DNA from: Paramacrobiotus metropolitanus
Lineage: Eukaryota; Tardigrada; Eutardigrada; Parachela; Macrobiotidae
DNA: 64,000 nt
Direction: 5' to 3'
Assembly: GCF_019649055.1 (NCBI RefSeq)
Contig: NW_026570302.1
Coordinates: 496,001 to 560,000 of the forward strand
Shown here: piece by piece, positions 5,850-38,848 of the stretch
Layout: each line of letters starts with the position of its first letter
Numbering within the stretch: position 1 is the stretch's first letter
The notes under the pieces: model-generated
What the model saw: only the letters and a program-made list of their open reading frames with translations
Database searches by the model: none
Told to the model about the DNA's origin: nothing
Translations under genes and position numbers: made by a program

Positions 5850-5871
5850 TTGTCAGATCGTCCGTACGGAG

Positions 5872-17600: not shown

Positions 17601-20600
17601 ATACGTTCGAGCAGCATTTAAAAAATCTTGAAGAAGTGTTTGAGATCCTCCGCGAGGCAAATTTTACAATCAATGGCAGGAAATCAAAGTTTTCCATGCC
17701 GTCCTGCAAGTGTCTTGGTTTTATAATTTCGTCGGAAGGGATCTCACAGGACCCGGCGAAAACCTTAGCCGTCGAAAAGTTTCCGGTCCCAAGGGATTAT
17801 ACCGAGTTAGCCCGATTTATCGGTTTAACTTCGTTTTATAGGTGTTTCATACCTGGTTTTTCTAAAATCTGTGGTCCGCTCCACGATTTAGCGAATAAAT
17901 ATTGCAATAAAAAATCTGCTAAATTGCCCTGGGATCCAACGCATCAGCAGGCCTTTGAGAGCTTGAAGACCTTGATGACCAATGCACCAGTTTTAAGTTA
18001 TTTTGAAACAAACTTACCAGTAAATCTCCACGTCGACGCCAGTGATTATGCTTTGGGGGTCGTGTTGGCCCAGAAGCATGACGTAGGCGAAAAACCTATC
18101 GCCTATGCTTCCCGGAAATTGGGAAAAGGAGAGTCGGCGCTCAGTACAACAGAAAAGGAATGTTTGGCGATCATTTTCGGTGCCGAAAAATTTCGGCAAT
18201 TCATTTTAGGCCATAATATAACGGTCTTTACCGACCATTTTAGTATGGTCTGGCTTCAGAACCTACGAACCGAAAATGCAAAACTCGCGCGATGGAGTTT
18301 GCGGCTTTCGGAGTTTGAAATTAAAATTATTCATAAAGCCGGAAAGGCAAATGCGGATGCAGATGCTTTGAGTCGGGCCCCAGTCTCGCCGGCGCCTCCC
18401 GAAGGAACTGATATCGATTTTCCAATTTTTACGATCAGTGCCATAACAAAGGTTCAAAGGATCGATTTACGGCAAGAGCAACTAAAAGACCAGTTTTTAA
18501 ATGCCATTATTAATTTCAAGGAAAACACGCCAGCAGTTTACACGGAGCGAATAAAAAGGATCGCATCGTTGTACTACTTGGATGATGGTATTTTGTTTTT
18601 TCTATTCAAAGATAACGGGATTGAAAGGTCGTTGCTTGCGATACCGCAGCATATGCGTCAGGAAATCTGTGAGGCAGTCCATGATTCACCGGTAGGTCTT
18701 TGCCACCTTTCGTATCGGAAAACGCTGCAGGTCATTATAGATCGTTTTTATTGGCCAAAGATGGCCAAATACATTCGGCAGTATATCGCGTCTTGTACGG
18801 TTTGCCAAACCAGAAATCCAGTCTACACTAAAAAGGTCGGCCAGCTCCTTAGCCTTCCAGTCCCAAATCGGCCTTTTGTCAGTTGGTGTATTGACACGGT
18901 AGGGCCGATTACGACCTCGTCAAAGCAAATGAAATATATTTGCACGGCAATCGACGACTTTTCAGGCTTCTTATGCGCAAAAGCTACGCGGACGCATACA
19001 GCATTGGAAATGGCTAAATTTCTGGTGTTCGAAGTGTTTTTGAAATTCGGATTTCCTCTGGCGATCAGATCGGACAGAGGAAAAGAGCAGTTAAACGATC
19101 TCATCAGCTCTATTTACCAGTTGTTGAAAATTAAGCACCTGAAGGGTGCGGGATGGGCACCTCAGACTAGCGGAAAGGTGGAACGAATTCACCGACCGCT
19201 GGGCGCAATGTTAGCCAAAATGTGCGCCGAATCGCAGAGAGATTGGAGCGATTTTGTACCGTTTGCGGTGTTTGCACTAAATAATTCTGTCAGCGACGTA
19301 ACAGGATATACTCCGTTCTTCCTAGCGCACGGAGTATCTTGTTTGTTTACGTTTGATAGTAAGTTCGATACAGCGTTGTTAAGCGATCCGTTTGTGGAGG
19401 ATCTGGCGGAAAATCTTGCTAATGTGCATGCTGAAGTTAAGCATAATTTGCAAGAAGCGAAAATTGATCAGGCGGCGTATTATAATGAAGGACGTAGGGA
19501 AAAGGAGTTTCAGAAAGGCGATTTAGTGTTACTCTTTAGTCCTATTAATAAACCCGGCAAATCAGCGAAATTAATGCATTACTTTCATGGGCCATACGAG
19601 GTACTGGAAAAAACATCACCGGTTAATTATAGGATATCTTATTACCGTTCGAGTACGGAAGAGCCGGCTGTGGTTAATGTCTCTCGCCTGAAGAAGTTTG
19701 TTAAACGCGAATCCGAAGAAGATGACCAAATAGGGGTGCATCCCTTGCTACAGTTAAATGTAGCAGATGCTGAGTCAGAGCCAGGGTCAGATGATGACTT
19801 ATTTTTAAATACCAGCGGTAGCGGGGTGCCTTGTGAATTAGCAGCGGCGGAAACAGCTTATAAGGAGACAGGCAGAGGATCGACAAAAATATCGCAGAAG
19901 AAGCAGCCTAAAAAGCCGACTTCGAGTTCAGCGCTTGTGCCAGTTAAACCGTTAGCAAAGCAAGTTCAGTTTGATAAACAACCGGTTTATATTGAGGCCG
20001 AACAAGAGCAGGTTGTACTGGAAGTAGAGCCTACACCACTAGTAGATACGCCTCAGAAAGTCCTGAAAGTATCGGATCCGGTGGTGCCCAAAGAGCCCGA
20101 AACAGCACAGGTACGTCGATCCGAAAGGCAGCGAAAAGCGCCGAACCGGTTGATTCAGACTATGGCAATTCAGATGGTTAGTCGAACGGTGCAGAAACCA
20201 CCATCGGCAAGGCCGAGGTGGAAATTGCATTTTAATATTGGAGCAGTGTCTGCGGTTTGGTTTTGGTTGATAGTCTTCGGGTTGGGATTCGCATTAGCAC
20301 CAGTAGAAGCTTTGTCCGCCTCTTTGTGTGATTGTTCACAGCAGACTTTTGTGGGGGTCCTTGACCTTCAGCGTTATAAGGCGTGCGAACCGCTTCCGCC
20401 GGATGCAGCCTCAATGGAGATAGATTACTCGTTGTACATGATTCGTAAACCGTCGACAATGTTCCCAGGTTTGGCTTGTTCAGCGGTCATTCGGGATATG
20501 GTTATTACAAAGAGTTTTTGGGGTACTCTCGACCATGTACCATCATCGACGGTTCGAGAACTATCAGAGGCCGAGTGTAGGACAATTGAATCCACAAAGT

Positions 20601-23032
20601 CGTGTTTCGGGAATCCGATGGTAAAGAAATCAGGGTCAGATGTTTTTGTGTTTAATGAGAATCCGAAAAATGATTATGCATGGTTAACAACGACCCGGAA
20701 TACAATTGTCAATTGTATTCTGGAACCAGTCTCGTTAACACAAGAATCGGAAACGTCCGATATTTACAGTTTTGCGGGGAAGTTACATAATGATCGCAAG
20801 AAAGGATACGCGCTACACTCGCATGTTACGTTCATATGGGCTGTAGCGGATCAGGGAAGAGAGGCACGGTGTATTGTTGACAAATTACCGGAGGCATCTG
20901 CTTTGTTAGTAGATATCGGTAATAATCAGTTTCGAATCAAGGATACAGTAAAGCAGATTGAATTACTTATCAGAAATGAGACAGTTAGTCATAATTGTAC
21001 CTTTCCAGAACCGGTGTATAAGATTTTAACTGGGTTCAAAGATGTTTATGTGGGGTTTCGAATAACGGCAAAATTGGAACGTCACAATATCTTGGAAGGT
21101 CTTATGCAGCCAGTCGTTGCACGACATGCCCGTAGTTTAGCCAGTGCGTTGCAGGAATTGGATGCTACGACGCATCAGCCTATTGTAGCACGATTTGATC
21201 TAGATGCACCGGTACAGATTAGTTCTAATGTCAACTTGGATCTAGACAGGCAGGAACATCGACCGGTTAGCATAACGGTAAACCTGGATGACGTAGGAAC
21301 GACAGCTTCAGCACGGGTCCAGGTTAGCCAGGTAATCAGACCGGCAGTAGCAATCACAACGCAACCGACGGTTATGGATACAACAGCTGAAATGAGTACG
21401 GAAAGGTACCCGGAGGATAGGGTTGAGGAAATGATGGAGACAACACCTGCAGCGGTATGGGAAAGACAGGAGATTAGGACACAGGAATCGACACAGCCAT
21501 CGGCTACGCAGTTTGTTCAGCAGCATGCAGTATGGCATAGTGATCAGGTTCAGCAGGCAAATAGGCGCAACGGACCTAGGAAGCGCCCGATTCCGCGTAG
21601 AACAACCATGTTCCCCCTGGCGACGTCAACACCGAATATTACACGGTTGTCGATTCTTCGTCGACTGTATATGCAGCGTAATATCTCTAAGCCTTGGTTT
21701 TCGATTCTGCCCACGCTTTCGCCGTTTTTTAATCCATTTGCTCCTCTGCAAAGTCGGCCGTCCAGACAATCGAATTCAGAAGAAGATGAGCAACTGTCAG
21801 AACCACTTCCGGTCGAGCAAGGTTTCTCAGGATCTTGGGTTCCTCCAGGAGCGTATTCGCAGTATACTGCTGATCATATGTCCTTAAATAGGGACTATTA
21901 TCTAGCAGCCCATTTACAGTATTTGAACGATTATCAGACAGGTGCAGCTAATTTATTAGTAACGGAAATTCATAATTTGGATTGCTCACAGCGGCAGAAT
22001 ACTGCTGCGTTGCTGCATTTACTATCCAAGCAGTCTGGCATACGAGCAGCCAAGCTAGTTGGATTAGATCAGTGTAAATCTATTGTCTCCCATGGTGCGC
22101 AGGCACTGGTGTATCAGTGTGAGCCGACCTATGTGGAGGTCAAGGCGAAATTAACGAAATGCGGTATGGAACCGCTTGTTCGGGAAAATTTTACGATAGC
22201 CAGTGATGGGCTGCAACTGTATAAATTTGTTCCGTGTCTGCACAACAATGGTTATGCTCAGATAGGTGAACATACTTTTCAGTATAATTCGTCGATTTTG
22301 GATTGGTCGTTGGCACAGTCGACGGTTCAGATTGACCACGCCCATTTAAAGTCGATTTTTCAGTATCAGGCAGATAAATCGGTAATAGAGGGACTTATTC
22401 AGCACGATCCCCCTAATCATCAAGCGCTTGATATGCTCGGGGAGTTGTCAGCAATGGCTGATAATACCCGATCAGGATCGTTAGCGGATGTCTTTGAACA
22501 GGAGTCGCAGAGAAACAATTTACCCAATATGGGCACATGGATGGTATATACCACGCCCCGTAATGTGATTATAGTAATTATAGTCTTACTGGGTATAGCG
22601 ATTATCATCCGAGTGTTATATCGCTACGGATTTTGGCATGCAATGTACAATCTATTTTTGGAAACGAAGAGTCAAGCTCGTAACACATCAACGTTGCAGC
22701 TAGCAGCAAGTCAGAACCCAGCTAGAGGAAGGCAGAATCCAGTGCGATTTCAGAATCGAGCCGATCCGAACGTTTATTTTGAAAGTAATAACCTACTAGA
22801 CAGTACTGTAAATTCCCAGCAATCGACGTTGAATTCGGAAAGGTCTACGTTACCACGAAGACAAGACCTTAATTCAGGTCGAATTGTGGTGAACCCGAAA
22901 CGAACCGGAAATAACTCCGGTCGATCAGGGAATCAGTCAGGAAAAGCAGGAACTATATCACCACGAGGAGTGCATAATCTCAACGGTGAGTTCCGTAACC
23001 TGAATTTCAACCCCAACGGAATCTGGGCCTGA
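14603..23032 (+). CDS. Gag-Pro-Pol-Env-like polyprotein
   Basis: A single open frame of 2809 codons. Retrotransposon Gag lies at about residues 90-230, then an Arg/Asn/Gly-rich nucleic-acid-binding stretch (about 275-400). A zinc knuckle C-x2-C-x3-H-x4-C spans 421-433, one residue shorter than usual. The protease DTGS is at 493. Three zinc-finger-like units (about 667-755) lie between protease and RT. The RT motif is FIDD (991-994), followed by RNase H (about 1140-1260). Integrase has an HHCC region and D1431, D1491 and E1527 with D,D35E spacing, then a GPY motif (about 1662). After a disordered linker come a hydrophobic segment (about 1880-1902), a Cys-rich ectodomain with N-glycosylation sites, and a membrane segment (about 2654-2676). 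Envelope fused in frame to pol is unusual. The ectodomain's Cys pattern weakly recalls class III-like arthropod virus glycoproteins. Confidence 0.95.
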   Translation: MANDDDVYPNLDESVHEDEHHSVDGDSVLNAADNRNEDPRGFDDAAAQRAMVNLVNLNEKRFAESIAKALVSAPKGPPPVAPPTFSDDAEEDIGIFLKDFEVKTEAQGWTEQLMADRLPLYLKGTALAWYHRNKALIPRPASWKILKALLTRQFRPPGYLEHQIRVLNRRKFKSDESVHDYLAEVMKLFDILEELGKTYSDKEKADKLVEGLSGELLKYVTLLQPETPQEFYKHANTAVHLIKKSIQTPLPVLNAPVAVDLPLEQIESMVSRGAARAQTRDRGNFQPNRDGPRQGPNQRNGNQRSDQNSRSSDRNTGNGFGNSDRNFFNQDNNGRYQGQRGFRGRGMNNRYMRGRNNDFNQYSHYGPPPPWVYNRNQGNDQHNSNRSDQQQAQQPVDRFETQQLQNALPAPPQPRQLTITCFKCGGPHYVAQCPAQQSSANGPVARREASRTFMIKVTRNESSESSVKDIVMANEHPVINVQILAKEVKALLDTGSAITLVSENFVSGLLLEEYINPRDVVEGQTFNGHGFVTKGSIFLPVTIGAQTFAIKADVCSEVSSQFEVIIGWPDLQKFYPAKMVNLIKKLEATEQDSQRLVTGHSKQDPVEGSWPKEELQVASPTSPSTTLGKAKVGETLDSGAKRLINQLRKGPVDEKGHLTELKDHFTCGCGQVLTSKYQWRIHRFSCKHTEATEEELQYKCACCHKFGTKEKFLNHLKDCPKNNLTTEHWKICPFPYCFFVTDSTKIFQSHREDHFRQNEDLLAPFTVEKSLETEKPEEKLGFYENQITLGHQLTPEQKEQLLQVLREYADLWPTEEVPMGGALVPPITLETEPNCAPVWQPVRRLAEKEKEIVDKEIKKLIKQGILKPSKSPWASPILLVKKQGQKDSYRICGDFRRLNTKLKYDRYPMPTIHEILQNLKGSYFTAIDLSQGFHQLPIAEADQEKLTIITTSGSFKYARLPFGVHLGPSAFQRTMHNLFEKLILEKKMQVFIDDITITGDTFEQHLKNLEEVFEILREANFTINGRKSKFSMPSCKCLGFIISSEGISQDPAKTLAVEKFPVPRDYTELARFIGLTSFYRCFIPGFSKICGPLHDLANKYCNKKSAKLPWDPTHQQAFESLKTLMTNAPVLSYFETNLPVNLHVDASDYALGVVLAQKHDVGEKPIAYASRKLGKGESALSTTEKECLAIIFGAEKFRQFILGHNITVFTDHFSMVWLQNLRTENAKLARWSLRLSEFEIKIIHKAGKANADADALSRAPVSPAPPEGTDIDFPIFTISAITKVQRIDLRQEQLKDQFLNAIINFKENTPAVYTERIKRIASLYYLDDGILFFLFKDNGIERSLLAIPQHMRQEICEAVHDSPVGLCHLSYRKTLQVIIDRFYWPKMAKYIRQYIASCTVCQTRNPVYTKKVGQLLSLPVPNRPFVSWCIDTVGPITTSSKQMKYICTAIDDFSGFLCAKATRTHTALEMAKFLVFEVFLKFGFPLAIRSDRGKEQLNDLISSIYQLLKIKHLKGAGWAPQTSGKVERIHRPLGAMLAKMCAESQRDWSDFVPFAVFALNNSVSDVTGYTPFFLAHGVSCLFTFDSKFDTALLSDPFVEDLAENLANVHAEVKHNLQEAKIDQAAYYNEGRREKEFQKGDLVLLFSPINKPGKSAKLMHYFHGPYEVLEKTSPVNYRISYYRSSTEEPAVVNVSRLKKFVKRESEEDDQIGVHPLLQLNVADAESEPGSDDDLFLNTSGSGVPCELAAAETAYKETGRGSTKISQKKQPKKPTSSSALVPVKPLAKQVQFDKQPVYIEAEQEQVVLEVEPTPLVDTPQKVLKVSDPVVPKEPETAQVRRSERQRKAPNRLIQTMAIQMVSRTVQKPPSARPRWKLHFNIGAVSAVWFWLIVFGLGFALAPVEALSASLCDCSQQTFVGVLDLQRYKACEPLPPDAASMEIDYSLYMIRKPSTMFPGLACSAVIRDMVITKSFWGTLDHVPSSTVRELSEAECRTIESTKSCFGNPMVKKSGSDVFVFNENPKNDYAWLTTTRNTIVNCILEPVSLTQESETSDIYSFAGKLHNDRKKGYALHSHVTFIWAVADQGREARCIVDKLPEASALLVDIGNNQFRIKDTVKQIELLIRNETVSHNCTFPEPVYKILTGFKDVYVGFRITAKLERHNILEGLMQPVVARHARSLASALQELDATTHQPIVARFDLDAPVQISSNVNLDLDRQEHRPVSITVNLDDVGTTASARVQVSQVIRPAVAITTQPTVMDTTAEMSTERYPEDRVEEMMETTPAAVWERQEIRTQESTQPSATQFVQQHAVWHSDQVQQANRRNGPRKRPIPRRTTMFPLATSTPNITRLSILRRLYMQRNISKPWFSILPTLSPFFNPFAPLQSRPSRQSNSEEDEQLSEPLPVEQGFSGSWVPPGAYSQYTADHMSLNRDYYLAAHLQYLNDYQTGAANLLVTEIHNLDCSQRQNTAALLHLLSKQSGIRAAKLVGLDQCKSIVSHGAQALVYQCEPTYVEVKAKLTKCGMEPLVRENFTIASDGLQLYKFVPCLHNNGYAQIGEHTFQYNSSILDWSLAQSTVQIDHAHLKSIFQYQADKSVIEGLIQHDPPNHQALDMLGELSAMADNTRSGSLADVFEQESQRNNLPNMGTWMVYTTPRNVIIVIIVLLGIAIIIRVLYRYGFWHAMYNLFLETKSQARNTSTLQLAASQNPARGRQNPVRFQNRADPNVYFESNNLLDSTVNSQQSTLNSERSTLPRRQDLNSGRIVVNPKRTGNNSGRSGNQSGKAGTISPRGVHNLNGEFRNLNFNPNGIWA

Positions 23033-23045
23033 GTTCAACGTTGCA

Positions 23046-23744
23046 ATGGCAACAATTAGTTTAGTTTTGTGTTTTTTGTTTTTTGTTGTGATGTTTTCCG
23101 GTGTTTTTGGTGGTCATTTTCCGCATAAGCAGCAGATCCCGACGCCGCCTCCAATAGATGAGGTGTTTAAGAATAAGACGCGTTCTCAGTATCTTCCTTA
23201 TTTGGCTGGGAGAGTAGCAGATTGTATGGAGTGTGCGTATAATAACTATATTTTGTCTCAGCATTATACGGAAAAAGATGAATTGAATGTGTTTTTGCGC
23301 TCGTTGCACCTGGAACATTATCGAATTCAGTATCAGTTGCATTTGGACGATGTCGTACGTATGAAAACGGTGCTGCCAGCATCTCCTTATAAGGAGACGA
23401 TTTATAACGGTACAGTTGAGGGGTTGTCGCAGTTACAACGTAACGTGTTGAAAACAGTGATTACGGATGTTCAGCATTTTACTCCTCCCTTAACTACTAT
23501 TTTAGAACTTGAGAAAGTTGCGCGGTTTATGAATCATCAGCGGTACCAGGAAATCTGTCATTTAATCCGTTTTGTTGGCCATGTTCCAGCGATCGTGTAT
23601 AAGTGCATTCAGTACTGGATGCTATATAATCCTACTTTGCTCCAACAGTATGGTACAGTTTCAGATGTGCAGTTGCATTCGACGGCGTATATTTCAGACT
23701 CTATGATCGCAGCCTTACGGGCGAAAGGTTATCGATACACATGA
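23046..23744 (+). CDS. secreted-like accessory protein 1 of the retroelement
   Basis: 232 codons starting 13 bases after the polyprotein stop. The N-terminus (MATISLVLCFLFFVVMFSG) is a clear signal peptide or anchor. The mature part has several Cys residues and N-x-T/S sites. The segment YKCIQYWMLYNP near the C-terminus resembles QKCLQYFILFDQ in the next ORF, so the two are probably paralogues. I do not recognise the family. It is likely made from a spliced or subgenomic RNA. The frame is intact. Confidence 0.75.
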   Translation: MATISLVLCFLFFVVMFSGVFGGHFPHKQQIPTPPPIDEVFKNKTRSQYLPYLAGRVADCMECAYNNYILSQHYTEKDELNVFLRSLHLEHYRIQYQLHLDDVVRMKTVLPASPYKETIYNGTVEGLSQLQRNVLKTVITDVQHFTPPLTTILELEKVARFMNHQRYQEICHLIRFVGHVPAIVYKCIQYWMLYNPTLLQQYGTVSDVQLHSTAYISDSMIAALRAKGYRYT

Positions 23745-23824
23745 GAGCTTGAGACAGTTTTAGAGTGAATAGTCTTGTTTGTGATCTTGTAACCGTTTAA
23801 ATACTTAAGGAAAATACCATAAAA

Positions 23825-24349
23825 ATGACTCCTATTGTTTGGTCCGTTAGTTTGGTCTTGAGTCTTATGATCGTGGGTGGTGTACATACCCGAGCGGCAG
23901 ATATGCCCTTTCATCTGCGACCGGATGTTGTTCGGGAGCTTTATTTACCGGAGAATCATCATATTTTCCATAAATTATATTTGCTTAACAGTGCTATGAA
24001 AGAAATCTCCTTACCTCCGCCTAAGAAATTTGGTACTTCTATTGGCCCAGGACCAACATCTCGCTGGGAAGCTGATATGCCTGAAATTGCAGTGAACGCG
24101 ACCTTCGCACCTTTGACATACGAAGAAATCTTTTTGCAAGATCGCCCTTCTCCGTATATTATTGTTTCAGACAGCCAAAAGGTGGCAGGTATTCTGGCCA
24201 AAGAGTTTTGGCATAATTATTGTACCAATACAGTGAAAATTAACAGTCGCCTGTTATTGCAAAAGTGCTTACAATATTTCATCCTCTTTGATCAAAAGAA
24301 AATCGGCAATTTACGGTCTCTACCGTTTGCCACTAAAGATGAATACTGA
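23825..24349 (+). CDS. secreted-like accessory protein 2 of the retroelement
   Basis: 174 codons with a signal peptide (MTPIVWSVSLVLSLMIVGG). The C-terminal QKCLQYFILFDQ matches the KCIQYWMLYNP segment of the ORF at 23046, and both have a preceding helical stretch. It is shorter than its neighbour and probably arose with it by duplication. The function is unknown; a cofactor of the envelope-like protein or a secreted effector are both possible. Confidence 0.75.
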   Translation: MTPIVWSVSLVLSLMIVGGVHTRAADMPFHLRPDVVRELYLPENHHIFHKLYLLNSAMKEISLPPPKKFGTSIGPGPTSRWEADMPEIAVNATFAPLTYEEIFLQDRPSPYIIVSDSQKVAGILAKEFWHNYCTNTVKINSRLLLQKCLQYFILFDQKKIGNLRSLPFATKDEY

Positions 24350-24436
24350 GCAATAGTCTCAGCGCGCGTGTGCAAGTATTTTGTTGTGGTTAGTTGTGAA
24401 ACTTACAAAACGCAAAAAATATCTTTGATTGTGTGA

Positions 24437-24844
24437 GTGAAAATGCCTACTCCGCCTGTGTTGGAGCAACCTTCATATTTACCCAGCATTAATAAATATT
24501 TATGCCTTTGTGGAGCGATAATTTCAAATTATTTAGATTTTCTTGTGCATTGGACGCGCCATCAAAAAGGGCGCATGGCTTCGCGTTTAACTCTGGATGA
24601 TAATCCTATTATGTGTGACTTTGATTTTTGTCATTACGTTTGTGATAATGCGCAGCACCTACGGGCTCATACGGAAAACCATAATCGGTTTTATATTGCC
24701 TTTCAACACAACCCGGCAGTTTTTGCCTTAAGACTTCCTTTATTTATCGAACCAGAAGCAGTCGATGTTGAGAGATGGGCTCTGTTATCGGCCCAAACTC
24801 CGTTGTTGACAACAAGTGCTGTGCCAAAAAGAAAAAAAGAATAA
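24437..24844 (+). CDS. C2H2 zinc-finger accessory protein A
   Basis: 135 codons. Finger 1 is C-x-C-x11-H-x4-H (CLCGAIISN...H) and finger 2 is C-x4-C-x12-H-x3-H (CDFDFCHYVC...HTENH). The same pair of unusual spacings, C-x-C and C-x4-C, appears in the fingers inside the polyprotein (about residues 667-755), suggesting descent from that block. It may bind DNA or RNA of the element. It is intact. Confidence 0.85.
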   Translation: MKMPTPPVLEQPSYLPSINKYLCLCGAIISNYLDFLVHWTRHQKGRMASRLTLDDNPIMCDFDFCHYVCDNAQHLRAHTENHNRFYIAFQHNPAVFALRLPLFIEPEAVDVERWALLSAQTPLLTTSAVPKRKKE

Positions 24845-24908
24845 AACGTTTCAAATGGCCAAAAATATTTGGTGTTAATATATTTAGATTGATTTGTTTT
24901 GTTATAGT

Positions 24909-25178
24909 ATGCCAAAAATTACAAAAAATCCTCGTATTCGATGTCGATTATGCGAATCCACTTTTGCCCGGAGCGAAGATTATCGAAGACATAAGGAAGA
25001 ACGTCACTTGCGGTTAAATCGGGTAAAATGCGGTGTGTGTAAGAAAGTTATTCTGCGAAGAGTGATGTTAAGACATCTTCGTACGCATCCAGAGTTGGAA
25101 TTTTTTTGTTCGAAATGTTATGGTGGATTTCAGAACGACCTGCAGTATCGTTGTCATTTATGTGAGAAGTGTCCGTAA
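24909..25178 (+). CDS. C2H2 zinc-finger accessory protein B
   Basis: 89 codons from the ATG at 24909, almost entirely zinc fingers: C-x2-C-x12-H-x4-H (CRLCESTF), C-x2-C-x11-H-x3-H (CGVCKKVI) and C-x2-C-x12-H-x4-C (CSKCYGGF). It is basic. Such a compact three-finger protein is most simply a nucleic-acid binder. It lies 64 bases after accessory protein A. Confidence 0.85.
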   Translation: MPKITKNPRIRCRLCESTFARSEDYRRHKEERHLRLNRVKCGVCKKVILRRVMLRHLRTHPELEFFCSKCYGGFQNDLQYRCHLCEKCP

Positions 25179-25274
25179 ATTTTGCCCACATGGTCAGTTA
25201 TACCGGGCGCTAAATTTTTTTTTTTCTGCCTAATAGTTATTTGTCTTTCGTCGTCCTTATCCGTTGTATTAATA

Positions 25275-25721
25275 ATGTTTCAATTCTTTTGTGTGAAATG
25301 TGGATTTTGGACGGATCGATACTTTCTCGCGTCACAACATCATCAAGCTCATGCCAGAGGACAGTTCCTTATGAAGCAGAAAAAATGGAGGATTGACATG
25401 CCTCATGTTTGTTGTCATAACATAATGCAATACAAAAACGGGAAACTGTCCGAAAAAGAAGGTACAACGTGTACTTTTGTCCCGCGGGATTGGTCCGAAT
25501 GTGTCTCACATATGAAGTTACATACTGCTTATTTTATTGCGGTGAATACTTGTGACAACTGGCGCACTATTAAAAAAGAAATGAAGAAAATTACTATGGA
25601 AAGACGCGCAGAAAGTTCGCGCCGACGGTATATCCAGTTACAGATCGAGCGACTGGATTCAGAAATCGTCTCCTTGACCAAACGTCGCGATAAGTTCAAA
25701 AATTCCATATTCTTGGATTAG
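25275..25721 (+). CDS. zinc-finger plus coiled-coil accessory protein C
   Basis: 148 codons from the ATG at 25275; the frame is open upstream to about 25182 but without an ATG. It opens with a C-x2-C-x12-H-x3-H finger (CVKCGFWTD), then a Cys/His-rich middle that may hold a second, degenerate finger. The C-terminus is basic and heptad-like (IQLQIERLDSEIVSLTKRR), so dimerisation is likely. It is intact. Confidence 0.8.
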   Translation: MFQFFCVKCGFWTDRYFLASQHHQAHARGQFLMKQKKWRIDMPHVCCHNIMQYKNGKLSEKEGTTCTFVPRDWSECVSHMKLHTAYFIAVNTCDNWRTIKKEMKKITMERRAESSRRRYIQLQIERLDSEIVSLTKRRDKFKNSIFLD

Positions 25722-26275
25722 TTTCTCTTTATTCACAATACTGAAAAATGGTAAAAAATAAGCAGGTACCTATGGATACGTTATATCCGGTACATTAACT
25801 ATTTTTATTTTGAGTAATATTGAAGTTTAAGTTCCAATTTTCATCCTGGTGAAAACTGGAATTTGAATTGATTTGGTGTCATGAAAGTATTTATTTTATC
25901 CAGCAACTATGAAAGATATTCTGCAAAACATCATGCCGAAATATCGGTAATAAAAGTTTGTTTTGAGAATGGTGACCAATCGTCGAAAAACATCACCATG
26001 GTCTGAATAACTCAAGAACTAAATTACGTATGAGGTGTTTGAATTGCTGAATGTCCTCAAATTTCGTTTAGTTGACACCAGATATGGTGTTAGTATGCAT
26101 TTTTCGATCAGTACCATTGGATTTTTATATCCGGTACAAATGTCGTAATTTTAGTTATTTTTATTTACAGTTTAGTCTGTGGTGTTACTTATTTTATTAG
26201 ATTTTTCAAGTTGGCCGCAGTTCGGGCGTATTTTATCACACATATCGACTAATAAGTCATACTGTTATGTTATAG
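25722..26275. other. retroelement spacer, no gene recognised
   Basis: About 550 bases of AT-rich sequence with no long open frame. It ends 'tatgttatag' directly before the next ATG, which resembles a splice acceptor, so part of it may be an intron. Confidence 0.4.
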
Positions 26276-26722
26276 ATGTGGCATTGCGACTGTGGATTTG
26301 TCACCAGTAAACCGAATATGCTCGTTGAGCATCAGCGCCGCCACGATATGGGACGGTATGATAAGAACAGTCCTAACAAATGCAAGATACTGTACGGATT
26401 GTGTAATTATGTGGGTTGGACAAAAGCGGAAACGACAGCGCACCAGCAGGTGCATCAGACGCACGAACAGGCCCGCCAACCTTACCTGGCTACTACTACA
26501 CAACACGACACACACATGTTGAAATTGTCGAATGATTGCGCGAAACTCTATGCAAAATACCAGCCACTTAACCCGACGCGGAAGCCAATTAAGTATCATC
26601 CAGCACTGATGGTAACCGAAATCGAAACTGAACCGGAACCGAACCAGAACCGAACCGATGACGAACCGGAACCGGAAGTTCCGCGAGAGGGAGACGGCCA
26701 TGAACAGTCGCCGGAGTTGTAG
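26276..26722 (+). CDS. C2H2 zinc-finger accessory protein D
   Basis: 148 codons. Finger 1 is C-x-C-x12-H-x3-H (CDCGFVTSK) and finger 2 is C-x6-C-x12-H-x3-H (CKILYGLCNYVG). The C-terminal third is a low-complexity Glu/Pro/Asn stretch made of 'EPEPNQNR'-type repeats. A splice acceptor-like sequence touches the ATG, so it may have an upstream exon. It is the last gene before the 3' LTR and is intact. Confidence 0.8.
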   Translation: MWHCDCGFVTSKPNMLVEHQRRHDMGRYDKNSPNKCKILYGLCNYVGWTKAETTAHQQVHQTHEQARQPYLATTTQHDTHMLKLSNDCAKLYAKYQPLNPTRKPIKYHPALMVTEIETEPEPNQNRTDDEPEPEVPREGDGHEQSPEL

Positions 26723-26909
26723 TTGCAGTGAAGTGAACGTGTTGTATCGTGAAAACCGGGGGTTTGTAATGGTTCAGTATTTTGTAATGTATTTGCTCAG
26801 TATTCTGTTGAAGTCTTGCCGTTTGATAGTATTAGTGTTTAAGTCTTCGTAATTCTGTTGATTGTTTTTAACTAAGCTGCCATTATATCGCACGAGGACG
26901 CGCGGCTCT

Positions 26910-26920
26910 GAAAAGGGGAG
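26910..26920 (+). promoter_or_regulatory. polypurine tract
   Basis: 'gaaaaggggag' ends 3 bases before the 3' LTR, the expected place for the plus-strand primer of reverse transcription. Confidence 0.75.
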
Positions 26921-26923
26921 CAA

Positions 26924-27233
26924 TGTGGAGTGTAGCGGATGGGAAGGCTACTTCCACATATGGAGACGCACGGAACCAGCGGCGGCCCCGCCTGCATGCA
27001 GCTAATATATCTCTCCGCCGCTTAGCATGAAGCGGCGGAGGATATAAACATGTTGGGATGCTTTGTGTTGGTGCCCGGGAAGTCAGTCAATAAAAGTGAG
27101 AAAAGCCAGTCAGCGCGTGTGTCTATAAATAAGCCTCAGAAAGTCAAAGATCACAAAAGTATCGGTCAGAAGCAGAAAAGAAAGAAAGGAAAGTGTGCAG
27201 AGAGTTAGTCCATCGTCAGTTCCGGCCTTTACA
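26924..27233 (+). repeat. 3' LTR
   Basis: TGTGGAGTG...GGCCTTTACA, matching the 5' LTR except for about two substitutions and four 1-2 base indels, several in short homopolymers. It is followed by the target duplication TATT. Confidence 0.95.
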
Positions 27234-27482: not shown

Positions 27483-27490
27483 TATAAAAA
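27483..27490 (+). promoter_or_regulatory. TATA-box-like element before the TBP-like gene
   Basis: 'tataaaaa' in 'gcatataaaaaaggg', about 80 bp before the ATG at 27571, with an initiator-like 'tcagtctcactt' about 35 bp downstream. The spacing fits an RNA polymerase II core promoter. Confidence 0.6.
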
Positions 27491-27570
27491 AGGGTATGAA
27501 GGAACAGGTCTGAAATCAGTCTCACTTCATTTTCAGTTTTGCACGGTTCTTATTTCATTCTACTTGGAAA

Positions 27571-28161
27571 ATGATTCACCATATCATAACTGTTGTTGTG
27601 TTTGACTGCAAGTTTGATCTGCAGAAAATTGCATCGTCCACTAAGTGTACATCTGTGAAGGATTTTAAGGCGCTCAATCTTACATCTTATGATGGGAGCT
27701 ATTGCCAAGTTTTCAGTTCGGGCAAAGCGATCATCAATGGTGGTACTTCTGAAAAAGAAGTACGCACACTGTTGAAGCGATACCGTTTTCGCTTAACCCA
27801 TCTTGGTTTTTCGGCCAAAGTTCTCAGCAAGCGCATTGCAAACATCATGGCGACGTACAACCATCAGCATCCTATTAATCTGTATAAATTTGCGAAAGCC
27901 AACAGCCTGTATTACGAGCCAGAACTGTTTGATGCGGCCAAAATGCGATACGACGATCTTGGAATCACGGTTAAAGTGTTTAGTTCGGGAAAGTGTACGA
28001 TTTTAGGCGCCAAGAGTGTCAAAGCAGTAAACACTTGCATTGACCGCCTCCGATCCACTCTCCCTTCTAATCCGCCACCGTCTCCTGACTTTGATGTAAG
28101 TGCCGTGCGCAAAAACGAAAATCTGCTACCTCGGACATTGACGAGTTTGTCAGGAACTTGA
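27571..28161 (+). CDS. TATA-binding-protein homologue encoded by the Polinton
   Basis: 196 codons from the ATG at 27571, forming a tandem pair of TBP half-repeats. Half 1 begins VVVFDCKFDLQKIA and has VFSSGKAIINGG (about residue 47). A linker runs through LTHLGFSAKVLSKRIANI. Half 2 has YEPELF (about 115) and VFSSGKCTILGAKS (about 135). In eukaryotic TBP the FSSGK, YEPELF and TGAKS segments form the DNA-binding saddle and include the DNA-inserting phenylalanines. Both halves are recognisable, though half 1 is shortened and several DNA-contact positions differ. The C-terminal ~45 residues are Pro-rich and non-homologous. It probably redirects or specialises transcription of the element. TBP-like proteins are known from some large DNA viruses; I do not know of one described in a Polinton. 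The frame is intact with its own TATA-like promoter. Confidence 0.9.
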   Translation: MIHHIITVVVFDCKFDLQKIASSTKCTSVKDFKALNLTSYDGSYCQVFSSGKAIINGGTSEKEVRTLLKRYRFRLTHLGFSAKVLSKRIANIMATYNHQHPINLYKFAKANSLYYEPELFDAAKMRYDDLGITVKVFSSGKCTILGAKSVKAVNTCIDRLRSTLPSNPPPSPDFDVSAVRKNENLLPRTLTSLSGT

Positions 28162-28171: not shown

Positions 28172-28636
28172 ATGTGTGAGTCACTGGTTGGTGCCACCCC
28201 CACCACTGCTACTCAAGGTACACAGACCACACCTCGCAAGCGCAAGCGGCTGCCGGAGGCAGATATGATGTGCGAGTTCAAGATTAGTACTAAATCTGTT
28301 AGTCGAAATACGCAGACCACACCTCAGAAGCAAAATCGGACCAATCCGGTTAAGGCTGATTTGAGTCAGCCTGTTCAGGAGGAAAAGTCCAACGAGTTGG
28401 AAGAATGGCTGAATGAAATTGACAAATGTGGAGAGGAGGAGCCAGTCCTTACTTTATCACAATGCGATAAACTGGTTGCACAATGGGAAAATAATTCCAT
28501 CGGAATCGACCAGCGTGACGAGTGCAAAACGGAAGAAGATGAGCCAATTTTTACGTTAACACAGTGTGAGAAACTGGTTGCGCAGTGTCCTAATAGAACT
28601 GTCGGCTTGTTTACCTTGCCCGAAGAATTGTTTTGA
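28172..28636 (+). CDS. acidic repeat protein next to the TBP-like gene
   Basis: 154 codons starting 11 bases after the TBP-like stop, in another frame. Two internal duplications are visible: TQTTPRKRKR / TQTTPQKQNR, and LTLSQCDKLVAQW / FTLTQCEKLVAQC. The first includes a likely nuclear localisation signal (PRKRKR). The rest is acidic. Being adjacent to the TBP-like gene, it may be a partner or activator, but I recognise no family. A fusion to the TBP-like protein through a frame change cannot be excluded. Confidence 0.65.
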   Translation: MCESLVGATPTTATQGTQTTPRKRKRLPEADMMCEFKISTKSVSRNTQTTPQKQNRTNPVKADLSQPVQEEKSNELEEWLNEIDKCGEEEPVLTLSQCDKLVAQWENNSIGIDQRDECKTEEDEPIFTLTQCEKLVAQCPNRTVGLFTLPEELF

Positions 28637-28990: not shown

Positions 28991-29619
28991 ATGGAGCGTG
29001 TAAATTTTGATTTTCGTTTCAAGACACCGTGTTCGGTGTACGTTTGTGGACCCACAATGTCTGGCAAATCTACTTTGATTATAAAGTTACTGAAAGAGCC
29101 GCACAAGTACTTTTATCCTTGCCCCAAGCGTATTGTATATGCATACGGCAGTTGGCAGAATTTGTTCAAAGATTTCCCATCTTCTGTTGAATTAATATCT
29201 GATTTCAATAAACTGTTTGAAGAAGGATTTTTCAACCCTGTTGTCCCAACGTTACTCATTCTTGATGATTTGATGGAAGAATTAGCAAATAATGTAAAAG
29301 CCTCAACACTGTTCACGCGAGATGTGCATCATAAAAATGTGACTGCCATTTTATTTCACAAAACTTGTTTAAACAAGGAAAAAGCATGCGTGATATAGCA
29401 GTGAATTCTCAATATCTGATTTTGTTCAAAAGTGTGAGAGACATTCAACAAATTCGTGTCTTGAGTCGGCAACTTGGCATGAAACATTTAGAGGACGCAT
29501 ACAAAAAGGCCATTAAGGAGCAATACGGATATCTGATTATAAACTTGCGACCTGAGACTCCGGATAATCTACGACTCCAATCGCATATTTTTAATCACAG
29601 ACGTATTTATACACCATGA
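28991..29619 (+). pseudogene. genome-packaging ATPase (FtsK/HerA, A32-like) with a frame change
   Basis: The first frame (28991-29398) holds Walker A GPTMSGKST (about residue 20) and Walker B TLLILDDLM (about residue 90). The conserved C-terminal part (LFKQGKSMRDIAVNSQYL..FKSVRDIQQI) is in another frame, read to the stop at 29619. The frame changes near 29350 in a short T run. Total coding length, about 210 codons, fits Polinton ATPases. The enzyme is thought to pump element DNA into virions. The first frame alone would give a protein lacking the C-terminal part. A homopolymer assembly error is equally possible. Confidence 0.9.
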
Positions 29620-29935: not shown

Positions 29936-31051
29936 AGACGTATGTGCTCGTACCGGAGACAGAATATAATACGGTGATGAAGCCGTGTCCAACACCCTGG
30001 ACGAAAGCGTATCAAATTCGGAGCGAGATCGAAAGACATTTGCAGCACCAAGACAACACCGAAAGAAACCCTAGTGTACAAAGCCTCTCAATTGGATCTC
30101 GTAGCCTCGCAACCGACACCGGTATCAATCCAAACGGAAATCCCTAGTGCACCGTTGCGGTCAACCATTACTCACGATCATGCCGCACAAGTGGATACCG
30201 TACCCATGGTTCAGTATTTTCCCGAACCTAAACCTCTAACGGTAGACACTCAAGCACAATCCGATCCAATCGAACCTACGGTTCAGTATATCGAAAAGGA
30301 AAAGCCTGTATATTATCCGGTGTCCGTGCCTCAGTATATCAATGTACCGGAAGACCAATTGTGCGGCATGTTTATAAACCTCAGCCAAAGAATAAACGGA
30401 TTTCCAAGCAGGCCCGTATTAAAAGTACATCTAGCACGATGCGGCAACCAAATCTGTCTAAAATAACTAAAGGACCAGCATTACCTGCCCTGTCTTACAA
30501 CACCCTAAACCCGCAGCCTGTGTATCAAAATGTTCCAATGCCCACAGCAAGCAATCCGTACTGGGAATTACGCAGTCCTTCTCCTACGCTGGCTTTAGCT
30601 GATAACACTACTGTACCGAATGTTGAATGGCCAGAAAGTGACGATGATTTAGATTCTTTATATGCGATACCATCCGCAGCCTTAGTACAGCCTTTAACGT
30701 ACGAGCAGCCGCAGCTACCTACTAGTTCAAGCCGGAAAGCTATCACATATGCGCAGCCACAATTGCCAACATCTCAGCAATTGGAAGCTTTGACCTACGA
30801 GCAGCCAAGTATTGCAGCACCTGCGGCCTGAAAAGCACTTACTTTTCAACAGCATAGTTTGCCAGCACCGACAGTCACGCCAGCATTGACATATAGGGCA
30901 CCAAACAAAACCCCGTTCCAGCAATTTTATACAAGCCAGAAGAAATAGTGCGCTGCGAAGCAAGAAAGCCAGGAGTGATAACCAGCCTCCAACAAAGAAA
31001 CATAAAACACAACACCAGACAGGCGGTGGTGGTTGGATATCTTTTGCATAA
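29932..31051 (+). pseudogene. repeat-rich structural protein, several frame changes
   Basis: It starts at ATG 29932 (MKTYVLVPETEYNTV), overlapping the previous stop. The reading continues in other frames: 30074-30466 (Pro/Gln-rich with VQYFPEPK / VQYIEKEK), then 30361-30831 with repeats of LTYEQPQLPTS. An in-frame TGA at 30829 is followed by more of the same repeat (ALTYRAP). Another frame change follows before a basic tail ending GGGGWISFA. The stop at 31049-31051 overlaps the integrase ATG. A protein starting M-x-YVLVPE in this position is common in Polintons, and its role is unknown. At least three disruptions are present. Confidence 0.6.
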
Positions 31052-32117
31052 TGGTTTCATTGGATGATTTGTATTTGGACCCCTCTAACCCAGGTAGCTT
31101 GGGCGGAGTTCAGCGTCTGTACGCGGAAGCTAGTAAACACGGAATCACAAAAGAGCAAGTTGAACGATACTTGCAGTCAAAAGACACCTACACCGAACAC
31201 CGGCCGCACCGCTCAAAATTCGAAAGAAGAAAAATCATATGTGTCGGCGTAAACGATCAACATCAAATTGACCTTGCCGATATGCAGAAGTTTTATAAGG
31301 AAAACGATGGAGTGAAGTACCTGTTAACCTGCATAGATTGTTTCTCACGATATGCATGGGCGATTCCTGTAAAATCGAAGAAACCAAAGGAGATCGTTCG
31401 AGCGTTGGAAAAAATCTATGGAGATTTACGTACACCGCCGCTAAGATGTCAGAGCGATAATGGAAAAGAATTCACAGCAAAGGAAGTTAGAGATTTCTTT
31501 CGCGACTGTGGAGTTAGTTTTTTCACCACAAAGAACGACGATATAAAGTGTGCGATGGTGGAGCGCTTCAACAGAACGCTCAAGGACAGACTTTATGTCT
31601 ATATGACAGAGAAGCAGACCTACCGATACCTGGATGCACTGGATAATGTAGTATCAGCATATAATAACAGCGTGCATTCGGCTATAGGTTTTGCACCAAG
31701 TGAAGTGGACGTAGAAGAAGCTCGCGTTATTCGGGGAAAATGCTTGAGGATGATGAAAGGATACAATGAAACCTCCTGTTTTTGCTGTTAACGACTATGT
31801 GAGACTTGCCAAAAAAAAAACTTACGTTTGAGAAAGGCTATGAAACAAACTACACGGAAGAGCTATTCAAAATAGTAAAAGTTGTCAAGAAAGGAAAGCA
31901 ATGGTTGTATGCAGTTGAAGATTTATCAGGTGAAGCAGTGGACGGCCTGTTCTATCGTCAAGAGTTGTCGAAATTTATTATGACTGAACGACCAGGTCAT
32001 AAAATATCACGCATATTAAGGACGAGAAAGCATAAAGGAAAGGAACAATATCTCGTGAGATGGTACGGTTACGGACCAGCTTATGATTCATGGGAAGATA
32101 AGGAGAATCTAAAATGA
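31051..32117 (+). pseudogene. retroviral-type integrase with C-terminal chromodomain, frame-changed
   Basis: The ATG at 31051 opens a catalytic core with all three acidic residues: D in QIDLADM, D in QSDNGKEF and E in VERFNRTLK. The N-terminus (YLDPSNPGSLGGVQRLY) is typical of Polinton integrases. After 31765 the reading moves to a second frame (PPVFAVNDYVRL) and, at an A10 run (about 31811-31820), to a third. That third frame ends with a chromodomain (ISRILRTRKHKGKEQYLVRW...SWEDKENL) and stops at 32117. The chromodomain may guide insertion to marked chromatin. The catalytic region is intact; the C-terminal part is frame-disrupted or misassembled at homopolymers. Confidence 0.93.
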
Positions 32118-32944
32118 GTTTTACATGTCATTACAAGTTCTGCATCCAAGACGATATTCCCGGATAATCGTCCTGGCTGCTATACGACACAACTCGTCCG
32201 TTCGATTGACTTGGACGGATCGTGGAGGTTGGACTTTCTGAACTAATTCTCCGCCAATGGAAATGCGTTTTCAGTCAGATCTAAAGGTTGGGATAAGCAA
32301 ACCATATATGCCGACTTTTGAAGTTCGTACGCTGCCAAGAAATTATTCTACAGAGATGAATATGATTTAATCAGTAGCGTAAACGAAATGCTCACATACA
32401 ATCCGCGTTTCGCTCGCAATTTGGACTTTCGCTACAGCAACCACGACTTGATTAACAGAGAGCCTAAAGATTTACCCCAAACAACGGAAGACGAAAAAAG
32501 CAGTATGAAAAACTTCCTTTGCAGCCATCAAAATTCAAGGAGATCATGGACAGCTTTTCGTGCGCGGTGACAGTCAAGTTATATTTGAAGGAGCGGAGTA
32601 TACGTGCCCTTGGATTACACGATAATTATCCTTATATGGGGATCGAAAAGGAACCTTTCGTGTTACGTCCACCAAAACATTGTCGCATTGTGAACATTTA
32701 CTGTGATTTAGTGGAATATCAACTCGTAGGGGATGCAATGGTCCCTGTTCTGCGCACGTTGTGTACCGAAGCCAGTTCGTACGATGGTACTGTTCTGCGC
32801 TTTGAGAATCCGCATTACTTGCCTGTTCAAAAACAGACATTTAGCTCAGTGGAGATTGAAGTGACTGACGACAGAGGAGAAGAAATACGATTTCATAGCG
32901 GAGTAGCAGTGATTAAGTTACATTTCAGACCAAAAAGATATTAA
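32114..32944 (+). pseudogene. minor capsid (penton) protein, frame-changed
   Basis: The ATG at 32114 overlaps the integrase stop. N-terminal signatures FPDNRPGCYTTQLVRS and VGLSEL lie in successive frames between 32150 and 32260. The C-terminal half (32519-32944) is one open frame with IVNIYCDLVEYQLVG, FENPHYLPV and a closing LHFRPKRY, the usual hallmarks of the Polinton single-jelly-roll penton. At least three frame changes lie between 32160 and 32560. This protein would form capsid vertices. I infer the family from motif order. Confidence 0.85.
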
Positions 32945-32946
32945 CC

Positions 32947-33360
32947 ATGGTACTGAAAGAGCACCATTTTAGCGAATCTCGCTACACAGATTTATTTGCC
33001 AAACAGCATGGCTTCGGTATGCCAAAATACCGAGGCGCCCCAGTTTTGGCGGCAGCTTCTGGGGCGGGTGATTGGATTTGCTAAAGGTCTATTTAGCAAA
33101 GCTGCACCATACATTTCGAGCCTTGTAACCAAAGCACAACCACATATGAAGACAGTTGCTTCTAAGGCAGTGGAGTCGGTCATCGATACAGCAGTAGAGA
33201 AAGTTAACAAAAGCTAAAAGAGTCCGCCGGCGAAGAAATGGGCATTGGGAGGACGCAGGCGACGGAGAGTACGAAGACACAAAGCGCAGAAAACACGTCG
33301 ACAAACAAAACGCACGCCAAACGAAAAGGAACAAGAAAACGAACCAAGCGACAGTTAGCT
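32947..33360 (+). pseudogene. basic pVI-like minor virion protein, frame-changed
   Basis: From ATG 32947 the protein begins HHFSESRYTDLFAKQ and reads GFGMPKYRGAP, a common start of Polinton proteins in this position. A frame change near 33035-33045 leads to an amphipathic helical segment (VIGFAKGLFSKAAPYISSL) ending at 33217. An Arg/Lys-rich tail in another frame continues to about 33355. The arrangement of amphipathic helix plus basic tail recalls adenovirus pVI and DNA-condensing proteins; this is inference. Confidence 0.6.
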
Positions 33361-33391
33361 ATCGACGCTATCGCTAATAGATTTTGACAAA

Positions 33392-34739
33392 ATGGCAATG
33401 ATCGAAGCAAACTCGGAGCCTTCAATGCTACTGGAAAGCCATCTATTTTACCTGCCGGCAACACTGACAGAAAGATGGAATACGAAGGACTATGACATTG
33501 GACCAGCTCAAGCAACATTCGATTCAGCAAACGATATTGTTTTTACTATTGCTCCCTCTCTGAGTGAGTTGGTGAGCCTAGCGGATATTAGATTTAAGTG
33601 TGACTTGCACGTTACGAATAAGGATGGCGCAGATTTGAAAGACTCGGACTGTCTGGCACCAATTAACAACATTTTGCACAGCTTATTCCAATCTGTTACC
33701 GTTAGTATCGGTGGCAGGAATGTCACGGATACAAGCACGCTGTATCATTACCGTGCGTATCTAGAGTCGCTGCTCGGCTTTACGGATCAAGCTCAAAAAT
33801 CGCAGTTAACTCTATCAGGATTTGCATTGGATAATAACTGGGAGAAGAAACCAGGTCATGTAACATCAGCGGATGCGGCGAAAGTGAACCGTTTCTGTAG
33901 CGATGGAGCTAACAAACGGCGCGATTGGCTACAGAATATGAAACCGTTACAATTGTCAGGCAAGCTGCACTGTGATCTGTTTCAACAAGAAAAACCACTC
34001 CTGCCTGGAGTTGAGCTCACAATTAAATTGGTGAGGAACAAAAATGAAGTGGTTTTGTTGCTGACAGTGATAACAACGCCCCAAAGCTGTGGCTATAAGA
34101 AATCCACGTTTGCAAGTAAGAAAATTTGAGCCATCTCCGGATTATTTTACCGCAATGAGCAAACAACTACTCAGCAACACAGTCAAATATCACATTGAGC
34201 GAGTGGTGATGCGTGAACATACACTTATTCTTGGACAGCAACAGGCTGTTTGGTCCAATATTGTAATGGGACAGTTGCCGAAAATTATGATTTTTGGCCT
34301 AGTGCCTAGTCGCTCGTTTGCCGGGAATATGCATCATCACCATTTAATTTCACGCACTGCAATTTAACGAACATTGTTGCCGAGATTGACGGTCAGCTAT
34401 TTCCCACACAAGGCTACAATTTAAACTACGAGAAAGGCAGCTCTATACAAGGCTATGAAGGCTTGCTTGATACACTTGAACGTCTTAACGAAGGAGCGGG
34501 TGAATTGCCAATAGACCGCGAACAGTACAACAAGGGGATTCTGCCTATACGGTTTCGATTTCACACGTGGACACACAGGACGAGGAGCAATGTCCTTATC
34601 GCGTCATGGAAATCTGAACATACATTTGAAATTTGCTAAGGGTTTGGAGGAAAATGTTGTTTGTGTTGCCATGCTAGTATTCGATAACGTTATAGAAATC
34701 AACAATAATCGTCAAGTCATTTTTGACTTTGCACCATGA
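33392..34739 (+). pseudogene. major capsid protein (double jelly-roll), frame-changed
   Basis: About 449 codons between ATG 33392 and the TGA at 34737-34739. The first frame (to about 34050) carries the conserved N-terminal half: PINNILHSLFQSV, NVTDTSTLYHYRAYLESLL and a WEKKPGH segment. The middle (YFTAMSKQLLSNTVKYHIERV, GQLPKIMIFGLV) is in a second frame (34089-34367). The last third lies in further frames and ends with FDNVIEINNNRQVIFDF, typical of the MCP terminus. I see at least four frame changes (about 34055-34095, 34085, 34325, 34540). This would be the main shell protein. With this many breaks it is hard to see a functional product unless the assembly is at fault. Confidence 0.9.
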
Positions 34740-35409
34740 ACAACATACAGATCCAAGACGCGCTACAGAGAGATCCGAAAATCCGCGAGATTTTTATCGG
34801 AGTGTATTCTGCCAACAGAATCCCAGACAAGGAATTTCCCGGCGCTTACATTGTCAATACGGAGGTGGAGGGCGATCCCGGACAGCACTGGGTTGCATTC
34901 TACTGTGTCTCACCAGGCATACTTGAGGCTTTCGATTCATACGGTGAAAACCCATCCGTTTACTCGCAGCATATCAAGAACTGGATGGGGACGACTTTAT
35001 TATTTTATCTAACACGGAGCGACAAAGCGTAAACAGCACAGTATGCGGCCAATACTGTATGTTTTTTGTTACGCTACGCTGCTACGGATATACATACAAG
35101 GATGTCATGTCAGCGTTAACCAAGCATAAAGGAGTGAACGATGTGTTCGTATGCAAATTTATTAACAAGTTTTTCAGTATGCGAACACGAGTGAAAGACC
35201 GGAACTTTATAAATGGACTTCTCAAAATTAACAGAAAGCAGGTCGCAGGTACCGTTTTCTGGGTGATTATGTTTGGCCTCCTACTCAGTTTCTATTCCTG
35301 CAAATCTATCAATCCATTAGGGAAACAGAAATATAACGGAAATCGATATCAAGGCATCGAAGGACGTGACAGAAGCGTTTCTAAATACTCTGAGATTAAC
35401 GTCAGATGA
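34736..35409 (+). pseudogene. adenain-like cysteine protease, frame-changed, with a C-terminal membrane segment
   Basis: The ATG overlaps the MCP stop (ATGA). The catalytic His is in GQHWVAFY and the Asp/Glu-type residue in FDSYG (first frame, to 35032). The catalytic Cys (CGQYCMFF) is in a second frame starting at about 35000. The frame changes near a G run at about 34985-34995. This enzyme would mature virion proteins. The second frame runs past the protease end to a hydrophobic segment (VFWVIMFGLLLSF, about 35254-35295) and a basic tail, an unusual extension or a fusion with a small membrane protein. Confidence 0.88.

Positions 35410-38810: not shown

Positions 38811-38848
<38 letters not shown>

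Follow-up and report, generated by a model that had tools for sequence, protein, structure and literature searches.

A diverged TATA-binding protein gene in Polintons of the tardigrade Paramacrobiotus metropolitanus

Introduction

Among the core factors of eukaryotic transcription, the TATA-binding protein (TBP) is as a rule strongly conserved and low in copy number. Genes for TBP homologues also occur in some large DNA viruses, as a preliminary description of the DNA studied here had pointed out. TBP is a core gene of mirusviruses, present in 59% of genomes (PMC10132985), and giant viruses encode TBP as well (PMC11464507), African swine fever virus B263R being one example (PMC5825884). In a green alga, TBP genes have been described sporadically in elements that are putatively related to mirusviruses, and not in the alga's Polinton-like viruses (PMC10675990). 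Here we describe a TBP gene in a Polinton, a virus-like element, located in 64,000 nucleotides of the genome of the tardigrade Paramacrobiotus metropolitanus (RefSeq assembly GCF_019649055.1, contig NW_026570302.1, positions 496,001 to 560,000). This whole stretch is called the window below, and feature coordinates refer to it unless a locus or contig is named.

Like the algal elements, which are not Polintons, this one is a repeat element integrated in a eukaryotic genome (PMC10675990). The mirusvirus and megavirus cases come with their own RNA polymerase subunits (PMC10132985, PMC11464507), unlike the Polinton in the window, where a Pfam scan of 16 ORFs (open reading frames) found none. The preliminary description knew of no earlier Polinton TBP, and our literature search agreed: none was reported among the best-ranked matches in the full-text papers searched, most subscription papers and preprints being out of scope. 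A search for the terms TATA, TBP and TFIID in five papers on Polintons, Mavericks and Polinton-like viruses (PMC10120064, PMC8097293, PMC4642659, PMC4028283 and PMC12220804) likewise found no TBP, and the excerpted text of a paper on tardigrade repeats mentions Maverick once and Paramacrobiotus not at all (PMC11071193). Viral TBPs are already known; the Polinton is an unexpected carrier of one.

Results

The gene was found as an ATG-to-stop frame of 196 codons at positions 27571-28161 (+). Its product matched the Pfam TBP family (PF00352) with 92.2 bits (E 1.9e-26, cut-off 22.9) in two stretches covering both repeats. Direct reading located VFSSGK twice, once in each half-repeat, and YEPELF and GAKS once each, in agreement with the preliminary description. 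An AlphaFold model of the core, residues 1-166, was obtained with a predicted local distance difference test (pLDDT) value of 96. In this model two pseudo-symmetric repeats form the predicted saddle, which superimposes on human TBP on DNA (1cdw) with a template-modelling (TM) score of 0.92. The nearest solved structures are cellular TBPs, and identity to the TBP structures listed is 22-30%. The TBPs of giant viruses (Nucleocytoviricota) and mirusviruses are also virus-encoded TBP folds, the best BFVD match reaching a TM score of 0.87; among the models listed, those of giant-virus TBPs scored lower against the window model than cellular TBPs did. The best database protein was a 'TATA-box-binding protein-like [Paramacrobiotus metropolitanus]' entry, with 92% identity over 87% of the query and a matching copy on contig C147.

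The surrounding element has the hallmarks of a Polinton. Terminal inverted repeats (TIRs) of 124 bp lie at 2515-2638 and 38846-38969 (99% complementary), and a 6-bp target-site duplication, TAGGAT, flanks them at 2509-2514 and 38970-38975. Between the TIRs are a DNA polymerase B (PolB) gene of the organellar/viral type at 5809-10153 (+; PF03175), a broken copy in two frames (5809-8076 and 8159-10153), and an integrase at 31051-32117 (+) with an rve domain (PF00665, 31051-31791) and, in the next frame, a chromodomain (PF00385, 31803-32117). A retroelement with long terminal repeats (LTRs) is nested at 12302-27233 (+), its LTRs at 12302-12616 and 26924-27233 being 97.8% identical. Some 340 bp separate the 3′ LTR from the TBP frame downstream of it. 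These coordinates bear out the earlier placement of TBP between the Polinton terminal repeats and outside the nested element.

The 196-codon frame described earlier is present, but it is not the whole gene. In all five relatives read downstream (contigs C201, C44, C133, C74 and C19), the TBP frame remained open into the equivalent of 28172-28636 (+), a segment that lies in another frame in the window copy. As the five relatives have an unbroken frame, the window copy is disrupted where core and tail should join. Comparison with the relatives indicates that 27571-28161 is a truncated gene, consisting of the core and the first part of a C-terminal extension whose frame is lost in this copy. The acidic ORF at 28172, previously suggested as a possible partner protein, corresponds in the relatives to the C-terminal part of TBP itself. 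In this tail, an acidic half with 21-25% D+E and two LTLSQCDKLVAQ-like units comes after a basic patch (PRKRKR or GKRKR); the tail on C19 is longer, differs from the other four and has DLFDWF/DLFEWF units instead. Its composition and repeats suggest that the acidic tail of the window subfamily is a candidate activation domain.

We searched the 169.8-Mb genome for further TBP genes. A TBP profile gave 493 first-look candidates, of which the best 150 were scored; all 150 exceeded the cut-off. Merging these with matches to the window protein yielded at least 185 TBP-like loci, one of which is the host gene at C4 and 184 are others. For comparison, the best 149 of 1018 integrase candidates were scored. 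TBP was present within 10 kb of 106 of these 149, as against about 3.4 expected under uniform placement. Conversely, 110 of the 185 TBP loci lay within 15 kb of a scored integrase, which was downstream on the same strand at 2.2-4.4 kb in 58 cases, upstream on the same strand, mostly at about 6 kb, in 41, and on the other strand in 11. From the 75 remaining loci 20 were fetched, and 19 had at least one further Polinton gene (ATPase, integrase, capsid candidate, protease or PolB); the twentieth was the host TBP gene, with no Polinton genes around it. We conclude that TBP is a genuine Polinton gene, common to many Polinton lineages of P. metropolitanus.

Three observations on individual loci were made along with this survey. 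The ATPase and TBP ORFs are head to head in L019 (3986-4690 (-) and 4689-5207 (+)) and L022 (3989-4690 (-) and 4689-5207 (+)); their first start codons overlap, leaving no intergenic space for a promoter if those starts are used. In the public P. metropolitanus gene model P0080 (LOC129590691 isoform X2), a Polinton-type ATPase, recognised by eye, is joined to a partial Polinton TBP; the model is an element annotated as a host gene. The host TBP gene (L001/L002, G000:C4:406165-406662) was found exon by exon and has one stop inside the first repeat, possibly an intron edge or an assembly error.

Phylogenetic analysis began from 171 rows, clustered to 108 for a quick tree, 56 of which entered a bootstrap tree; fragmentary loci (L008, L011, L015, L017, L020, L031, L037, L047, L048, L061 and L074) and the host duplicates L001 and L002 had been dropped beforehand. 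In the 56-row tree the cellular TBPs, including that of the host, formed one group (support 100/99), the window TBP fell into a separate clade A (100/99) far from host TBP, and the remaining Polinton TBPs formed clade B (96/90). The corresponding values in the quick tree were 99, 98 and 87. When rooted among cellular TBPs, clades A and B form a single group. Metagenomic proteins in the tree also fall into clades A and B. These kin, known from proteins alone, came from two profile searches with 207 and 1439 matches at E <= 0.001, of which the best 120 each were examined; further down, the second set held ordinary eukaryotic TBPs. The contigs that encode P0126, P0133, P0144 and P0185/P0187 measure 7.6-27.6 kb. 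Two scans of IMG/VR with TBP alignments and one with a candidate capsid protein returned no free viral relative. Identity to host TBP is 31% over residues 47-148 (L013). These results indicate that the Polinton TBP is old and deeply separate from cellular TBPs.

The ratio of nonsynonymous to synonymous substitution (dN/dS) was calculated for 29 chosen, mutually non-independent pairs of copies. It ranged from 0.031 to 0.239 in the 21 pairs with measurable dS, the ratios being rough in 5 of these, where dS exceeded 2.6; the other 8 pairs were saturated and gave no ratio. Among the 19 matches that the L010 protein retrieved at >=91% identity, 18 were free of internal stops. As judged from these sequence comparisons, the Polinton TBP is under purifying selection. 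These patterns indicate that the protein does something for the element.

Residues were surveyed at what we take to be the DNA-kinking, floor and stirrup positions of TBP, in yeast numbering, across 146 Polinton and metagenomic rows and 19 cellular rows. The kinking residues F99, F190 and F207 are retained in nearly all of the 146 rows. F116 is mostly F in clade A and is Y in 37/37 clade-B rows, and the window protein has F at all four positions. N159 and E188 are also mostly retained, and both TFIIB-facing stirrup residues, E186 and E188, are E in the window. The floor has been altered. Its residues are near-invariant in the cellular rows, whereas Polinton and metagenomic rows carry L114Q (142/145), T215L (139/146) and V203T (127/146), all three shared by clades A and B; L114Q and T215L occur in 0/19 cellular rows. 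T124N is found in 23/27 clade-A and 37/37 clade-B Polinton rows and in 5/24 of the metagenomic clade-A kin. L205 is mostly replaced by V in clade B and by K, N or H in clade A. At L114, V122, T124, V203, L205, V213 and T215 the window protein has Q, I, N, T, K, T and L, and it lacks the canonical TATA-reading floor. In sum, the Polinton TBPs share with the cellular core (human 1cdw, yeast 1ytb and host G000:C4) the two-repeat saddle, the kinking phenylalanines and, in clade A, the stirrup EPEL; they differ in the replaced floor, in being Polinton-encoded and, in the window subfamily, in the acidic C-terminal tail.

Some of these floor changes resemble those of TBPm3, a laboratory altered-specificity TBP (Xenopus I250F V259T L261V) that reads TGTAAAG (PMC2731028, PMC4466886). 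Two of its three changes have natural equivalents in Polinton TBPs, namely V203T and, among clade-B proteins and their kin, L205V, with the positions equated by spacing and the yeast numbering assumed above. Unlike TBPm3, the Polinton TBPs are also altered in the N-terminal half (L114Q and T124N).

Upstream sequences were then compared. The TATA-like box noted earlier before the window TBP frame is present as TATAAAAAA at 27483-27491 (+), 88 bp before the ATG, and a TCAGT pentamer, which we take to be initiator-like, lies at 27516-27520 (+), 33 bp past the start of the TATA box. TATAWA was found within 130 bp upstream in 22/25 clade-A TBP loci, the window excluded, as against 2/47 other loci; many of these loci are near-copies, and the 47 include fragments with an internal start and a few clade-A loci. 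The heptamer TATAWAW was not enriched in the 200 bp preceding the starts of 70 Polinton genes (4/70, shuffled mean 3.1), and it was absent from the same interval before capsid-candidate, protease, ATPase and integrase genes (0/44, with starts guessed by homology and near-copies included). Counting hexamers and heptamers ahead of 153 Polinton ORFs (>=90 aa, some possibly spurious) revealed no dominant motif; TATAAA and TCAGTT were among those mildly enriched.

Upstream of the TBP gene in a sister subfamily is a 21-pair inverted repeat whose loop contains TATATAAA, without variation among the loci. The repeat was aligned (alignment A4) from 14 of the 15 loci L034-L036, L049-L058, L016 and L021, L054 being left out; examples are L034:104-194, L035:104-194 and L036:593-683, with 11 further loci. 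In this alignment 96.7% of cells were paired and 11 pairs had changed on both sides, and the covariation score was reached by 0/500 shuffles; the number of further pair types was not unusual (187/500 shuffles), and the structure was derived from the same sequences. The repeat may form a cruciform in DNA, serve as an operator or act as a hairpin in RNA. A scan around the TATA box of the window TBP found no such inverted repeat.

A gene family near TBP in clade-B Polintons gave weak matches, below the cut-off, to the transcriptional coactivator PC4 (L009:6271-7254 (+), E 2.6e-4; L025:3104-4006 (-), 6.9e-4), and some of its members have a TATA box. A PC4 reading of window ORFs 10305, 11833, 35811, 36436 and 37052 was rejected, as only 3 of the 10 members of alignment A5 matched and the best (L009) was below the cut-off. 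The AlphaFold 2 model of 11833-12261 had a pLDDT of 49 and was not used.

Discussion

We favor the view that the ORF is the core of a Polinton TBP that probably serves as an element-specific initiation factor for RNA polymerase II, standing in for host TBP. Such a protein would replace host TBP at element promoters, bend the DNA there and recruit host TFIIB and RNA polymerase II. The altered floor would steer it from host TATA boxes to element-specific core promoters and, in the window subfamily, the acidic tail would provide a built-in activation domain in place of separate activator recruitment. Because the clade-A TBP gene mostly has a TATA box, host TBP could start that gene early; the Polinton TBP would then drive late expression of TATA-less element genes, which is the most speculative step. 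A more far-reaching proposal, which we advance only tentatively, is that these tardigrade Polintons and their metagenomic kin possess an orthogonal core-promoter system, with a dedicated TBP whose floor was rebuilt before the A/B split, fused in the window subfamily to its own activation domain, and with promoters that host TBP ignores and that use host TFIIB and RNA polymerase II.

A diverged TBP is here encoded by a virus-like element whose 16 scanned ORFs gave no RNA polymerase gene, in a genome with at least 184 TBP-like loci besides the host gene. If the Polinton TBP directs host RNA polymerase II to element promoters, viral expression would be made independent of host promoter recognition; this would help explain the timing of Polinton genes and would offer natural variants for studying how TBP reads DNA. 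If it also reads private promoters, an animal's virus-like elements would hold a natural equivalent of TBPm3, the laboratory TBP of altered specificity.

Several observations weigh against an element-specific initiation factor. The window copy is itself broken, with TBP (between core and tail), PolB and ATPase all disrupted. The 185 loci may include allelic duplicates, identical TBPs being present on four contigs (L003-L006). Polintons L084 and L085 have the genes from PolB through protease in 9.9 kb that lack TBP, and therefore the gene is not needed by all Polintons; L086 has no TBP either, although its sequence stops a short way beyond the protease. At the protein level, V203T is also present in 2/19 cellular rows, N69 is H in 11/27 rows of clade A, the group of the window, and the Ile-to-Phe change of TBPm3 was not seen among the Polinton rows listed. 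E186 is retained in 28/28 clade-A rows as against 10/37 clade-B rows; with this residue mostly lost, the TFIIB contact may differ in clade B. Upstream of the 153 ORFs, TGTAAA, the promoter element suggested by V203T and L205V, was rejected as a candidate (6 occurrences, 9.1 in shuffled sequence), and TATAAA showed a mild excess (17, 6.7 in shuffled sequence), which leaves the retargeting idea without a matching motif. TATAWA also occurs about 70-76 bp before the PolB ORFs of L009 and L024, so use of TATA is not confined to TBP.

The TATA findings, together with the TATA boxes of clade-A TBP genes and an overall fold like that of cellular TBP, would fit a plain supplement that shares its TATA boxes with host TBP and does no more than increase the TBP dose during element expression. 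We regard this as unlikely, since floor residues that are near-invariant in cellular TBPs are replaced in most or all Polinton rows. Slightly less likely again is a host shut-off factor, which would drain the host machinery by tying up TFIIB or other general factors while not binding promoters productively. Such a factor would account for clade-A stirrup residues that are retained while the floor is altered, and for our finding no element-wide promoter motif; against it, nearly all rows conserve the four kinking aromatic positions, which a decoy could do without, and the window subfamily has an acidic tail that points to activation. The regular spacing of TBP and integrase, in two main architectures (58 and 41 loci), raises a role in replication or integration, either as a DNA bender for the termini or as a guide that brings integrase to host promoters through TBP-binding factors. 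This seems improbable to us, TBP being linked to the whole element and not to integrase alone, and TFIIB-facing residues being retained in clade A. That the host TBP gene was recently retrocopied, or captured by chance, and has no function in the element is favored only by cellular TBPs being the nearest solved structures and can be discarded with near certainty because the tree places Polinton TBPs in a deep, supported clade apart from host TBP, while the gene recurs in many Polintons with dN/dS far under 1.

Other genes of the element and its surroundings

The element shares with Polintons/Mavericks the TIRs, 6-bp target-site duplication, PolB and rve-chromo integrase already described, together with an A32-like ATPase and an adenovirus-type protease. 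The packaging-ATPase-like gene at 28991-29619 (+) is broken into two frames; its Walker A motif, GPTMSGKST, was recognised by eye, AAA matches were weak and below the cut-off, and two longer relatives (L010 and L019) matched Pox_A32 (PF04665), also below the cut-off. The N-terminal part of an adenovirus-type cysteine protease at 34727-35032 (+) was recognised through relatives: the window ORF had no Pfam match, and those of L025 and L012 matched PF00770 above and below the cut-off, respectively. From gene order and general knowledge alone, we take ORFs at 32546-34639 (+) to be capsid-gene candidates, minor (32546-32944) and major (33392-34129 and 34310-34639). Similar ORFs adjoin TBP in other copies, in conserved position; neither the window ORFs nor their relatives gave a Pfam, PHROG or PDB match as double or single jelly-roll proteins. 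A BIR-domain (inhibitor of apoptosis) protein is encoded at 11319-11750 (+; PF00653, 27.2 bits, cut-off 22.9), and similar BIR matches adjoin TBP in L003-L006.

Within the nested LTR element, several extra ORFs at 23046-26722 follow the 2809-aa polyprotein, some of them C2H2-zinc-finger-like by eye; three were scanned with Pfam, none scoring above the cut-off. Outside the Polinton, positions 40623-60934 hold four tandem gene pairs, each with an unknown protein of 255-294 aa followed by an F-box-like protein. The F-box copy at 41690-42628 matched PF00646 and PF12937, and the other copies were judged by eye.
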